Below are positions 5,838 through 50,498 of a stretch of 64,000 nt of DNA, one piece after another (the first letter of the stretch is position 1; each line of letters starts with the position of its first letter). The stretch is taken from positions 1-64,000 of the forward strand of contig VGXC01000011.1 of NCBI GenBank assembly GCA_016873495.1, read 5' to 3'. Origin of the DNA: Nitrospira sp. (GTDB taxonomy: Bacteria > Nitrospirota > Nitrospiria > Nitrospirales > Nitrospiraceae). A model generated the notes under the pieces. It searched no databases and was not told the origin of the DNA. It worked only from the letters and a program-made list of their open reading frames with translations. The position numbers were made by a program, and so were the translations under genes.

Positions 5838-5918
5838 GTGATGGGTGAAGTGTGAAGGGTGATCCCGTACAAAGGTAAGCGTCCCACTCATCACTGATCT
5901 CGGTTCACACATCACTGG
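5838..5918 (+). repeat. Inverted pair of heptad arrays (GTGAWNN / TCACNNA)
   Basis: Four exact seven-base units (GTGATGG, GTGAAGT, GTGAAGG, GTGATCC; 5838-5865), 18 unrelated bases, then five units of opposite sense (CCACTCA, TCACTGA, TCTCGGT, TCACACA, TCACTGG; 5884-5918). The two halves can pair into an imperfect hairpin. It ends 5 bases before the EamA ATG and takes the place of its Shine-Dalgarno region. Same family as 26930-27022. Confidence 0.8.
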
Positions 5919-26929: not shown

Positions 26930-27022
26930 GTGAGAGGTGATGCGTGATGTGTGATGCGTGACGAGGGCGATGCATGAAGCCGGCTGCTCACCCATCACTC
27001 ATCACCCTTCACGCATCACAGA
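26930..27022 (+). repeat. Inverted pair of heptad arrays between hemE and hemH
   Basis: Five tandem seven-base units GTGAGAG, GTGATGC, GTGATGT, GTGATGC, GTGACGA (26930-26964), 23 bases, then TCACCCA, TCACTCA, TCACCCT, TCACGCA, TCACAGA (26988-27022). The halves are complementary and can fold on each other. It ends 7 bases before the hemH ATG. Same unit and layout as 5838-5918. Confidence 0.85.
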
Positions 27023-27029
27023 ACGTGTG

Positions 27030-27980
27030 ATGCCAAGCCCCCAACGACCGATCGCGATACTGCTGATGGCTCTGGGAGGGCCGGACAAGCTGGAGGATGT
27101 CGAGCCCTATCTCCTGGACGTCCGGGGGGGGCGGCCGACGCCGAAAGAACTGGTCGAAGAGATCCGCGAGCGGTACCGGCTCACCGGCGGGAAGTCGCCC
27201 GCGCCCGACATCACGCGGGAGGTGGCGCGCAAGCTGGAGCAGCGGCTGAATGGGACGGGCGACGAGCGGGTCCGTTGTTATGTCGGATTCCGCCACTGGC
27301 ATCCGTACATCAAGGACGTCTACGCGGAGTTGGTGGACGACCGCCCTGAACGGCTGATCTGCCTCTGCATGGCGCCGCAATATTCTTCGCTCAGCGTCGG
27401 CGCCTACGGGAAAAAGGTCGAGGAGGCCAGGGCCGCGCTGGGCGGAGAGTTTCCCGTCACCTTCGTGCAGAGTTGGCATCGGCATCCGGGTTTGATCAAG
27501 GCCCTGGCCGACAACGTGTCGGCGGGGCTTTTGAAGTTTCCGGCGGAGGTCCGCGGACGAGTGCCCATTGTCTTTACGGCCCACAGCCTGCCGGAGCGGA
27601 TTCTGGCCATGAACGATCCTTATCCCGACGAGGTCCGGGGGACTGTCGAGGCTGTGTGCCAACGGTTGGGCCCGGTCACGTCGCGGTTCGCGTTTCAAAG
27701 CCAGGGCCGGTCCAGCGAGAAATGGTTGGGCCCGACCGTGGAGGCGACGCTGGAGGACTTGCACCGGGAAGGGCACCGGCAGGTGCTCATCGCGCCGATC
27801 GGATTTCTGTCGGACCATCTCGAAGTCCTTTACGATGTGGACATCGAGTTCAAGCAACTGGCTGCGTCGAAGGGCATGAGCCTCGAACGGATTCCCATGC
27901 TGAACGCGACCCAGCCGTTGATCGACACCCTGGCCTCGATCCTGGAGGGGCATCTGGCCAGCCCAGTCGGACGATCGTGA
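27030..27980 (+). CDS. hemH: Ferrochelatase
   Basis: Protein of 316 residues from ATG 27030 (the frame upstream runs through the heptad array and is not coding). Core motifs: ILLMALGGPDKLEDVEPYLLDV, MAPQYSSLSVGAYGKKVEEA, VTFVQSWHRHPGLIKALADNV and VFTAHSLPERI with the catalytic His, then APIGFLSDHLEVLYDVDIE with the conserved Glu. It inserts iron into protoporphyrin IX, or acts on coproporphyrin in the alternative route. Four bases separate it from hemG. Confidence 0.93.
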   Translation: MPSPQRPIAILLMALGGPDKLEDVEPYLLDVRGGRPTPKELVEEIRERYRLTGGKSPAPDITREVARKLEQRLNGTGDERVRCYVGFRHWHPYIKDVYAELVDDRPERLICLCMAPQYSSLSVGAYGKKVEEARAALGGEFPVTFVQSWHRHPGLIKALADNVSAGLLKFPAEVRGRVPIVFTAHSLPERILAMNDPYPDEVRGTVEAVCQRLGPVTSRFAFQSQGRSSEKWLGPTVEATLEDLHREGHRQVLIAPIGFLSDHLEVLYDVDIEFKQLAASKGMSLERIPMLNATQPLIDTLASILEGHLASPVGRS

Positions 27981-34314: not shown

Positions 34315-36587
34315 TGCCCGATCCGACCAAACCAGAGCCCGTCGAAGAAACGGTCGCGGAAGGCGAGCGCCGGAAATTTTACTCGCGTCCGGTCTGGATC
34401 GTGCTGCTGCTGCTCCTTCCCTGTTTGGCACTGACCTACTACTACGCCCAGGATGTTTCCCGGTACGCGGTGCCCGGCCCCTCCGATTCCGATTCACTGC
34501 TGCCGAGTCCGAGCTATGCCTTCGTCCTCTTGCTGGTCAATCTGGACCTGATCGGACTGGTTGTCCTGACGTTGCTTCTGTCCCGGAACCTGATCAAGGC
34601 CTATTTCGAGCGGCGGCACCGTTTGGTCGGGTCCGGATTCCGGGCAAAGCTGGTGGCGGCCTTCATCGGATTCGCCTTGATCCCGACGATGCTGCTCGCA
34701 GTCGTGGCCAGCGGGCTCGTCAACAAGGCGGTCGATGTCTGGTTCAGCGAGCAGATCGAACAGGTGCTGGCGGACTCCTACGACGTGGCGCGGATGCATC
34801 ACGAGGGCCATACGGTTTTGGCGGTGAACAGCGCCCGCGCCATCAGCCGCGAGATTTTCCGCGAGGAGATGCTGATCCCCGAGCAGCGGGAATTGCTGAT
34901 CGCTACGATGGATCGGAAGCGGGCCGAACACAATCTGGCCGGCGTGGAGGTCTATTCGGCGAAAATGGAGCCGCTGACCAAGACGACGGATCGGGCTGTG
35001 CCCGCCTCCGTGTTGGATCTGCCGATCGGGCAACTGGTGCTGCAGGTGTTGAAAGAAAAAAAGGAGCTGACGTCGGCGCAGGAGGCGCAAACCGGCCGGC
35101 TGATCCGCGCGGCGGTTCCGATTGCCTCCAATGCCCGCGAGGGCGAGGTGGACGGCGTCGTGGTGGTGGATGCCTATGTACCGGAGTCCCTGCTGGCCAA
35201 GATGGAAGGGATCTCGCGCCAGTATACGGAATACCGGCAGATTAAAGCGCTGCGCAATCCGATCAAAGTCGGGGCCTACCTGTTCGTGGCCGTGGTGACG
35301 GTCATGATCCTGTTCGGCGCCACCTGGTTCGGTTTCTATGTGGCACGCGGCATTACGGTGCCGATTCAGCGGCTGGCCGAGGCCACAGAGGCGGTGGCCC
35401 ACGGCAACCTCAATGTCAGGCTGGACGTGAAGGCGACCGACGAGATCGGCACGCTCGTGGAATCCTTCAATCGGATGACGGCCGATCTGAAGGGGAGCAA
35501 GTCGAAGCTGGAGGAGGCGAACGTGTCGCTGCGGCAGTCCAACGTGGAGCTGGACCGCCGGCGCGCCTATACCCAGGCCGTGGTGGACACCATCGCCTCC
35601 GGGGTGCTGTCGATCGACAAGAACGGCGCGATCACGACCTTCAATCCCTCGGCGGAGCGAATCCTCGGCGTGCTGGGCAACCAGATGCGCGGCCGGCCGG
35701 TCAACGAGGCCTTTAAGGAACTGGGCGTGGAGCTGTTCCAAAGCGCCTATGACCGCATGCTGGCGGAGCGTCGCGACAGCTTCTCGTTGGAAGGGCCGCT
35801 GGATGTGCAGGGCAAGTTTCTCACCATCGGATTGAACTGCTCTCGGATGCGCGACGATGCTGGGAACGACTTGGGGTTCGTGTTCGTGTTCGAAGATTTG
35901 ACCGAGCTGATCAAGGCGCAGAAGACCGCCGCCTGGCAAGAGGTGGCCCAGCGGATCGCGCACGAGATCAAGAACCCACTCACGCCTATTCAGCTGTCAG
36001 CCCAGCGGTTGCGCAAGAAGTTTTTCGAAAAGTCGCCGGACTTTGAGGCGATCTTCGACGAGTCCACGACGGTGATTGTGAACGAGGTGAACAGCCTCAA
36101 GCAGATGGTGGACGAATTTTCGAAATTCGCGCGGATGCCGGCCCCCCGCATGGCCAAAGAGTCGCTGCACGACATCATTCAAGACGTGGTGGCCCTCTAC
36201 CGAGGCGCGCATCGGGAGATCGAGTGGGTGGTGGAGCTGGACGACACGCTGCCTCCGATGAACCTGGACCGGGAACAGATGAAGCGAGCGTTCGTGAATC
36301 TCCTGGACAATGCCGCGCAGGCGATGAACCACAAGGGGCGGCTGTGGATTACGACCCGCTACGAGGCCAAGCGGCACCGGTCGGTGGTGAGCGTGGCGGA
36401 CGAAGGGGTGGGCATCAATCCCGAGGATCAAGAGAAGCTCTTCGTGCCGTACTTCTCGCGAAAGCGGACCGGCACCGGACTGGGGTTGGCGATCGTGCAC
36501 CGCATCATCACGGATCACGATGGGCAGATTCGCGCAGCCAACAACCAGCCGAAGGGCGCCGTGTTTACGATCGAGTTGCCGGTGTGA
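34314..36587 (+). CDS. NtrY-like sensor histidine kinase
   Basis: Protein of 757 residues. Membrane helices at about 22-42, 65-92, 103-130 and a last one near 318-345 flank an extracytoplasmic sensor region (about 130-315). Then HAMP (ARGITVPIQRLAEATEAVAHGNLNVRLDV), PAS (VVDTIASGVLSIDKNGAITTFNPSAERILG), HisKA (QEVAQRIAHEIKNPLTPIQLSAQRL, phospho-His in AHEIKNP) and HATPase (FVNLLDNAAQAMNHKG, DEGVGINPEDQEKLFVPYFSRKRTGTGLGLAIV). The stimulus is unknown. ATG 34314 shares bases with the upstream stop (TGATG). Pairs with the regulator at 36684. Confidence 0.92.
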   Translation: MPDPTKPEPVEETVAEGERRKFYSRPVWIVLLLLLPCLALTYYYAQDVSRYAVPGPSDSDSLLPSPSYAFVLLLVNLDLIGLVVLTLLLSRNLIKAYFERRHRLVGSGFRAKLVAAFIGFALIPTMLLAVVASGLVNKAVDVWFSEQIEQVLADSYDVARMHHEGHTVLAVNSARAISREIFREEMLIPEQRELLIATMDRKRAEHNLAGVEVYSAKMEPLTKTTDRAVPASVLDLPIGQLVLQVLKEKKELTSAQEAQTGRLIRAAVPIASNAREGEVDGVVVVDAYVPESLLAKMEGISRQYTEYRQIKALRNPIKVGAYLFVAVVTVMILFGATWFGFYVARGITVPIQRLAEATEAVAHGNLNVRLDVKATDEIGTLVESFNRMTADLKGSKSKLEEANVSLRQSNVELDRRRAYTQAVVDTIASGVLSIDKNGAITTFNPSAERILGVLGNQMRGRPVNEAFKELGVELFQSAYDRMLAERRDSFSLEGPLDVQGKFLTIGLNCSRMRDDAGNDLGFVFVFEDLTELIKAQKTAAWQEVAQRIAHEIKNPLTPIQLSAQRLRKKFFEKSPDFEAIFDESTTVIVNEVNSLKQMVDEFSKFARMPAPRMAKESLHDIIQDVVALYRGAHREIEWVVELDDTLPPMNLDREQMKRAFVNLLDNAAQAMNHKGRLWITTRYEAKRHRSVVSVADEGVGINPEDQEKLFVPYFSRKRTGTGLGLAIVHRIITDHDGQIRAANNQPKGAVFTIELPV

Positions 36588-36678
36588 CGTGAAGCGTGAA
36601 GAAAGAGAACCTCTCTATCAACAACGCGATACGAACGACGAGATACGAGAGACGTTTTTGACCGACGAGGAACGAGGA
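36582..36678 (+). repeat. Heptad array between kinase and regulator
   Basis: Units GTGTGAC, GTGAAGC, GTGAAGA (36582-36602; the first contains the kinase stop), then ACGCGAT, ACGAACG, ACGAGAT, ACGAGAG, ACGTTTT (36624-36658) and ACGAGGA twice (36665-36678). All are seven bases apart within each block. The last unit runs into the Shine-Dalgarno site of the regulator gene. Confidence 0.75.
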
Positions 36679-36683
36679 GAAGA

Positions 36684-39527: not shown

Positions 39528-39567
39528 CCCCCCATGCCGGCCTCCGGTATGATCCGGCTCCAGTCCG

Positions 39568-39602
39568 CAATTCTAAATTCACAATTCGCCATTTAAAATT
39601 TT
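39568..39602 (+). repeat. Heptad array before purM
   Basis: Five seven-base units CAATTCT, AAATTCA, CAATTCG, CCATTTA, AAATTTT, ending 6 bases before the purM ATG. AT-rich, unlike the flanking genes. Confidence 0.7.
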
Positions 39603-50113: not shown

Positions 50114-50164
50114 GCTGCGAAGAGCTGATGGCAAATAGCTGATGGCCGGCCGCTGGAGGATTAA

Positions 50165-50437
50165 ATGAAAGTGACGGACCCGGAAAAGCTGGCGCTGCTG
50201 TATGAGCGGTTTAAGGATGTGTGTCTGGTCGAAAAGGAAGTGTGGAAGGAAATATTTCTGCCGCGCGACGCGGGGAAAGGAATGATCCTGACCAACGTTC
50301 AGGATCGCTACGACGTCGTTATCGACGATCCGGCCATCGAGGATACGCTGGACGCCAATATCCCCCTCGGCGGAAAATCCCTCGCGGCCGCCATCCAACA
50401 GTACCGAGAGCACATCGGCTTCATCAAGAAAAGCTAG
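50165..50437 (+). CDS. Hypothetical protein (90 residues)
   Basis: MKVTDPEKLALLYERFKDVCLVEKEVWKEIFLPRDAGKGMILTNVQDRYDVVIDDPAIED: soluble, acidic, mixed fold. SD-like GGAGGA before the ATG. Between two heptad arrays (a partial one with AGCTGAT units at 50123-50150 upstream, and 50436-50498 over its stop). Not recognised. Confidence 0.62.
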   Translation: MKVTDPEKLALLYERFKDVCLVEKEVWKEIFLPRDAGKGMILTNVQDRYDVVIDDPAIEDTLDANIPLGGKSLAAAIQQYREHIGFIKKS

Positions 50438-50498
50438 CCATCAGCCGTCAGCTACCCGCTCTTAGGGAGAAGCTGAAGGCTGACCGCTGAGAGCTATT
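50436..50498. repeat. Nine-unit heptad array between convergent genes
   Basis: Nine consecutive units in exact register: AGCCATC, AGCCGTC, AGCTACC, CGCTCTT, AGGGAGA, AGCTGAA, GGCTGAC, CGCTGAG, AGCTATT. The left part is roughly the complement of the right part, so it can fold. It overlaps the stop codons of both neighbouring genes. The longest array in the window. Confidence 0.8.

Follow-up and report, generated by a model that had tools for sequence, protein, structure and literature searches.

Intergenic regions in the genome of this Nitrospira sp. carry cassettes made of two facing arrays of degenerate seven-base units, and comparisons between sister species show that these cassettes are gained, lost and swapped whole at gene junctions and then drift near the local intergenic rate. 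In related species, a cassette is retained at the same site with another sequence in it, suggesting either an undescribed process of DNA writing or a hairpin whose function is indifferent to sequence. The class is one of heptameric intergenic repeats with many cores and one architecture within a single genome.

The window, i.e. the whole stretch of 64,000 nucleotides under study, belongs to contig 11 of G000, a genome of 3.19 Mb in 89 contigs. The sample from this genome (464 kb) consists of the window together with 20 stretches of 20 kb each, including two that were picked because they contain arrays; a sister genome (G003) and other sister species of the same genus (G001, G002) were compared with it. 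Gene limits were taken from a simple codon-usage caller, which gives exact stops and approximate starts. The period-7 arrays reported at six places in the preliminary description were all recovered, with a lag-7 identity of 0.44-0.64, and they do lie between genes (hemE/hemH, EamA, NtrY-like kinase/NtrC-like regulator, RNA uracil methyltransferase/AIRS-type kinase, glutathione peroxidase), as follows:

5838..5862, plus strand: left arm with four GTGANNN cores, exact match, starting 5 nt past the upstream stop (5832)
5891..5915, minus strand: right arm, GTGANNN on the minus strand (TCAC on the plus strand), 1 mismatch, ending 8 nt before the EamA ATG (5924)
26930..26961, plus strand: left arm in the hemE-hemH gap, GTGANNN, motif match
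26988..27019, minus strand: right arm in the hemE-hemH gap, motif match, with the hemH ATG at 27030
about 36588..36683, plus strand: degenerate ACGA/CGTGAAG heptads in the gap between the NtrY-like kinase and the NtrC-like regulator
about 39566..39600, no strand assigned: AATT-core heptads (the core is its own reverse complement) preceding the AIRS-type kinase gene (39609)
50123..50150, plus strand: weak array, AGCTGATGGC recurring at 14 nt
50436..50498, no strand assigned: facing pair TCAGC.../...GCTGA between convergent genes (stop at 50437 on the plus strand, stop at 50494 on the minus strand)

Facing pairs are thus present at 5838-5918 and 26930-27022 (GTGA..TCAC in both) and at 50436-50498 (TCAGC..GCTGA). 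Lag 14 exceeds lag 7 at 39568-39602 (0.67) and at 50123-50150 (0.71), and the array at 36582-36678 is degenerate (16/28 lag-7 matches). At the gathering score, Rfam identified two tRNAs only in the window and no known RNA at the arrays. As for the suggestion that arrays take the place of Shine-Dalgarno sequences, the latter are missing here before hemH and EamA, but several relatives have one between the array and the ATG; the replacement is local and not a property of the array class.

When an array is called from four units and a minimum of four fixed columns, the 464 kb of G000 contain 65 at period 7, versus 0-5 for periods 4-6 and 8-11 at a comparable threshold and 0 after a second-order Markov shuffle. 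Without the two array-chosen stretches, 44 arrays are found in 424 kb, i.e. roughly 330 per genome by proportion. The lag-7 autocorrelation that had been proposed as a check shows an excess over shuffles genome-wide: in 241 intergenic gaps, z reaches 10.2, 8.9 and 5.1 at lags 7, 14 and 21, and coding DNA displays only its 3-base period in the lag analysis. At least 17/28 lag-7 matches were observed in 33 gaps; shuffled sequences gave 0.85 such gaps and unrelated lags 0-5, and lag 14, a multiple of 7, reached the threshold in 21. The pattern GTGA(N3)x4 has 48 exact matches versus 1 for the reversed pattern. In addition, perfect GTGAAGC arrays of at least 9 units, a slippage-prone form of the GTGA family, occur in the same genome at C13:30307-30387 and C4:73694-73757 (L058:13694-13756).

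Similar arrays are widespread. GTGA heptads of at least 5 units are found, among the matches listed, in Chloroflexota, Desulfobacterota, Bacteroidota, Verrucomicrobiota, Cyanobacteria, Acidobacteriota and others; around the GTGA-picked loci of other phyla, again among the matches listed, period 7 was counted 348 times versus 1-17 for other periods, many of these loci being perfect simple sequence repeats. Of 295 genomes of the phylum, 85 contain TCAGCNN x4. The sampled stretches of G004 and G017 have no heptad excess, and arrays abound in G005, G014, G020 and G022. Genomes G063 (Chloroflexaceae) and G079 (Sulfurovum), with >120 and >30 matches respectively, carry perfect TCAGCCT/TCAGCAC/TCAGCGT repeats, in contrast with the mixed TCAGCNN of the window's family.

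The unit is composed of 4-5 fixed and 2-3 free bases, with a locus-specific core. Its usual form has five fixed and two free bases (CGTGA-NN, TCAGC-NN, TGAAT-KN, AAAAT-KN, ATRGC-NN), with GGCNAKR and AGTTTTN as variants, and a genome uses few cores (effectively 13 of 512 5-mer classes in G000). With the class of each column (fixed or free) read from the opposite arm, which avoids circularity, fixed columns diverge by 14% between units and free ones by 60%. Identity in free columns is 0.391 for neighbours, 0.412 for units two apart, 0.392 for units three apart and 0.353 for units of the other arm; neighbours are therefore no more alike there than more distant units or those of the facing arm. 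Free positions are random even in the arrays whose cores are best preserved: one AGCNNTC array of G002 has five columns intact in 8/8 units and two random ones, and its ortholog in G001 has kept most free bases and lost about 6 of 40 core bases (hand count).

Four identical units were found in only 5 of 251 arrays, and identical units tend to avoid each other. In the GTGANNN arrays of the family, with overlapping matches removed by eye, 18 identical pairs are direct neighbours and 29 lie two apart, versus 2:1 in random order (p = 6e-5); in TCAGCNN arrays these counts are 10 and 13 (p = 0.02), and complementary bases are over-represented among the differences between neighbours (z about 4 at both positions). 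An automated test on the 251 family arrays gave 27 identical neighbours versus 37.6 expected (p = 0.007) and a lowered column identity between neighbours (z = -3.2, p < 0.001), and loci of other phyla show avoidance in the same direction. This is the opposite of what stepwise duplication should produce, since duplication makes adjacent units most alike; it would also be expected from the survivorship of slippage-resistant arrays.

The locus-specific units and inverted pairs of the preliminary description proved to be general. A second array with the reverse-complement core is encountered within about 100 bp of 40/67 arrays in G000, 20/33 in G003 and 80/114 in other family members, and the controls (reversed core, complemented core and distant window, respectively) gave 1, 9 and 2 in G000, 0, 1 and 0 in G003, and 5, 19 and 0 in other family members, the complemented-core control being inflated by self-complementary cores such as AATT. 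A cassette is typically composed of two facing arrays of roughly 4-6 heptads each, separated by a spacer of about 10-60 nt (median 27 nt); an element of 4+4 units spans 82.5 bp (median), and the periodicity starts 4 nt (median) past the upstream stop codon. Facing arms occupy 88/556 co-directional and 10/77 convergent gaps (98/633 together) versus 2/135 divergent ones (Fisher p = 4e-7). Both arms carry the same degenerate unit, the order of units differs between arms, and no complementarity in register was detected between them (mean rank 0.54, p = 0.18).

Some simple roles can be set aside. TGA, TAA and TAG are enriched in array gaps, but a role as all-frame stop codons was rejected, as all frames of one strand are closed in a minority of arrays only and the upstream stop shows neither a preference for TGA nor a register with the array. 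Intrinsic terminators were likewise rejected, TTTT following the hairpin in 1/55 cases and at none of the two window pairs tested. At L042:10058-10167 and L051:14924-15040 of G000, TCAGC...GCTGA arms surround an inner hairpin, terminator-like in appearance in the second locus; this hairpin is kept in G003 and the arms vary.

The persistence of the cassette at one junction, with a changing sequence, is best illustrated by the hemE-hemH gap. In 15 pooled family sequences of this gap, the lag-7 identity is 0.489 (0.254 in shuffles), with 0.434 at lag 14, 0.362 at lag 21 and all other lags at background. A facing pair is present in nearly all of the 15 genomes and in nearly every related genus, with differing cores: GTGATG, GTGAAY, AGC, ACGAATG, AAAGGCA, AAAATGA, ATGGCTG and GGCGAGA. 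The gap of G004 has no heptads, and that of G018 (L194) has a different, longer insert. A dispersed repeat, GTGCTCGCGCANCGCGCAC...GTGCTCGCTGGACGCGCGCAGTTGAGG, is found at like gene junctions of several genomes, among them L043:7529-7658 and L056:16768-16891 of G000 and the hemE-hemH gap of G018. In the kinase-regulator gap (36588-36683 of the window), the core is ACGA in G000, GTGAA in G003, TCAGCNN in G001 and G002, and GTGA in G005. Identical arrays in relatives, which had been expected to argue for a conserved function, were thus not encountered, the sequence being unconserved at the same junction.

Comparison of sister genomes further revealed whole-cassette changes: (i) at two junctions where the genes overlap or nearly touch in G000 and G003, G001 has cassettes of 94 bp (where the genes overlap) and 126 bp, (ii) a junction of 11 bp in G000 and G003 measures 79 bp in G002, (iii) a junction of 6 bp in G002 and G003 measures 91 bp in G000 and G001, and (iv) one convergent junction is empty in G002, and carries GTGA in G000 and GGTTNAG in G003. 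The coding flanks of gained or lost cassettes are mostly near-identical, the last codons of the upstream gene being able to differ, and gained or swapped arms change together, both at once. At L057 12125, G000 and G003 carry different hairpins in a gap that is otherwise homologous. Among G000-G003 pairs, 9/18 gaps with facing arms are unalignable, versus 11/82 without (p = 0.0015). Orthologous arrays differ mostly by substitution or full replacement; the single clean one-unit difference, of exactly one heptad (7 nt), separates the array pairs of G001 and G002 at L047 8112.

Homologous arms differ by 10.9% in fixed columns, 24.2% in free columns and 18.8% in spacers (29 comparisons from few loci, overlapping and not independent), so that the core rate is 0.58 of the spacer rate; in gaps without arrays the difference is 13-22%, according to the genome pair. 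An ortholog count in which replaced arms were not separated gave 13.4% for the core and 28.8% for free positions. According to our own calculation, a model of identical starting units evolving at ortholog rates predicts about 28% divergence in free columns when fixed columns reach 14%, whereas the actual value is 60%. In the simplest reading, the units of an array were unlike at their free positions from the outset. Alternatively, selection or correction that acted far more strongly on the cores at an earlier time could have left fixed cores and random free bases, as a core rate below that of the spacers may suggest; strong purifying selection on the cores was rejected, a rate of 0.58 being too weak.

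The explanation to which we incline, tentatively and with somewhat less than even confidence, is that a 7-nt copying process writes the heptad hairpin cassettes without any need for a host function. A cassette would arise in one or a few events, through DNA copying that advances in 7-nt steps, re-anchors on the 4-5 fixed bases and leaves the other bases unfaithfully copied; a strand switch during copying would give the facing arm, and selection would then purge the cassettes that hit genes or divergent promoters, the host not requiring those that remain. This process is favoured by (i) the exact period of 7 for every core and facing arms far above the controls, (ii) the conservation in one arm of columns fixed in the other, free columns being free in both, (iii) random free bases beside intact cores, together with neighbour avoidance, (iv) whole-cassette gain and loss and array gaps that are often unalignable, and (v) the lack of a close second copy of the tested cassette and of Y1/RAYT in the genome. 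Neither a writer gene nor an intermediate was found for it, which counts against it. Snap-back copying of one arm from the other was rejected as a recent state, the arms not being complementary in unit order. Replacement might also proceed by recombination with unsampled relatives, in which case the birth of the cassette would have taken place elsewhere.

That a hairpin of whatever sequence is useful at junctions, for 3'-end protection, cistron insulation or pausing, is a serious but doubtful alternative: selection would keep one hairpin while its sequence turns over, period 7 being a by-product of how hairpins arise. The strongest argument for such a function is the pair present at hemE-hemH in nearly all genomes in spite of differing cores, and it is consistent with the more stable folding of array gaps relative to other gaps (median z -2.5 vs -0.4) and with the location of cassettes after stop codons rather than between divergent genes. 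Nevertheless, the mRNA strand shows no surplus of G-U pairs relative to A-C mismatches (102 vs 87, p = 0.31), and no difference in folding energy was observed between sense and antisense (p = 0.22), so that RNA-level selection on the stem was rejected; moreover, the arms are not complementary in register, T-runs are as rare as reported above, many junctions are empty in sister species and the cores drift nearly as fast as the spacers. The lack of an RNA-strand signature and the frequent absence at other junctions weigh most heavily against this alternative.

Ordinary heptameric tandem repeats, produced by polymerase slippage, blurred by mutation and deprived of identical neighbours by further slippage (survivorship), appear unlikely as the whole explanation. 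Heptamers are the commonest bacterial repeats of 5-11 nt, and a 7-nt polymerase footprint has been proposed (Mrazek 2007, cited in PMC4679880 and PMC4692102). The perfect GTGAAGC arrays show that slippage acts in this genome too, perfect TCAGCCT/TCAGCAC arrays exist in Chloroflexaceae, and the complement-type neighbour differences enriched in TCAGCNN arrays are of the least slippable kind. Slippage alone accounts neither for facing arms with the same core, nor for random free columns beside intact cores, nor for junctions of 0-11 bp that become 79-126 bp long with no intermediates. The 'active slippage' of the preliminary description is not supported as worded, as adjacent units resemble each other less than those two apart do, and a gain or swap affects the two arms at once; the one-heptad change at L047 8112 between G001 and G002 suggests that slippage acts on arrays without explaining how they start.

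Insertion of a non-autonomous mobile element (MITE or REP/REPIN-like) at junctions is improbable, despite the presence or absence at precise junctions, the palindromic form, the extragenic location and the other MITE-like repeats that fill similar gaps in these genomes. Near-identical copies are absent for the one cassette tested, no donor copy exceeding 75% over most of its length; at least 10 core families exist, with no shared ends or loop among the listed cassettes; and Y1/RAYT is absent from G000, G003, G007, G026 and G033 despite abundant arrays, with 0 matches to Y1_Tnp/RAYT in the 99.97% complete G000. The earlier view that the arrays are not an ordinary spread element is therefore upheld. 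A MITE-like repeat with ends like TTGAAAAAGGCC...GGCCTTTTTGAACATCCTG was observed at L238:8784-8979 (G002), L182:7708-7899 and L234:6688-6849 (both G003), the G002 copy holding heptad arrays of two families. Lastly, tandem iteron-like protein-binding sites, which would fit a repeated core with free spacer bases and the limited core set, are very improbable, as the core at one junction changes between sisters with the same flanking genes and many cores coexist per genome.

The closest known relative is the (GGGANTN)n family of Xanthomonas, found at the same junctions in related species with differing sequence and length and as facing pairs (70 in Xcc, 75 in Xac), for which no function is reported (Rehm et al. 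2015, PMC4692102). The Xanthomonas repeats (GGGAATC) share with the cassettes the seven-base period, a usual number of four units, a unit of five conserved and two free bases, facing pairs, proximity to the upstream ORF, rarity between divergent ORFs and turnover at junctions. In contrast to their single G-rich, supposedly quadruplex-forming unit, at least 10 unrelated cores, mostly without GGG, coexist here in one genome, and no quadruplex-capable G-tract is present in the main cores GTGA, TCAGC, TGAAT, AAAAT, ATRGC and GGCNAKR; quadruplexes are thus not the general reason. Marine Beggiatoaceae also have heptamer arrays in many gaps, namely TAACTGA direct repeats of 2-6 units related to no functional gene class (MacGregor 2015, PMC4679880), but these consist of one exact heptamer with rare single-base variants, lie mostly just before start codons and include one indirect repeat only. 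Seven-base intergenic units are shared with the cyanobacterial STRR and with LSSR (Mrazek 2007), which are defined by identical units; the units described here are degenerate, with fixed columns and facing pairs, and are therefore not STRR in the strict sense. Like REP/BIME and REPINs, the cassettes are extragenic palindromes at gene ends, many per genome, but they have neither the conserved consensus (as judged from one cassette and the core set) nor the RAYT transposase of the latter. Among open-access full texts, no report of mixed-core facing heptads in one genome was found beyond PMC4692102 and PMC4679880.

More broadly, these repeats may represent an undescribed writing process, with facing arrays, 7-nt steps, a 4-5 nt anchor and 2-3 randomised nt, that rewrites junctions between close species and would include the heptamers of Xanthomonas, Beggiatoaceae and cyanobacteria as particular instances; we regard this as possible, with more doubt than confidence. 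Earlier accounts of heptamer repeats each dealt with a single sequence and sought the explanation in it, as a quadruplex or a translational signal; an architecture that is constant while the sequence varies implies that such sequence-specific explanations are not general. For annotation, cassette junctions mimic lost Shine-Dalgarno sequences and fast-evolving spacers. As to why the period is seven, the arrays would constitute a natural record of a 7-nt copying step, available at hundreds of loci per genome and in sister species that differ by whole cassettes.
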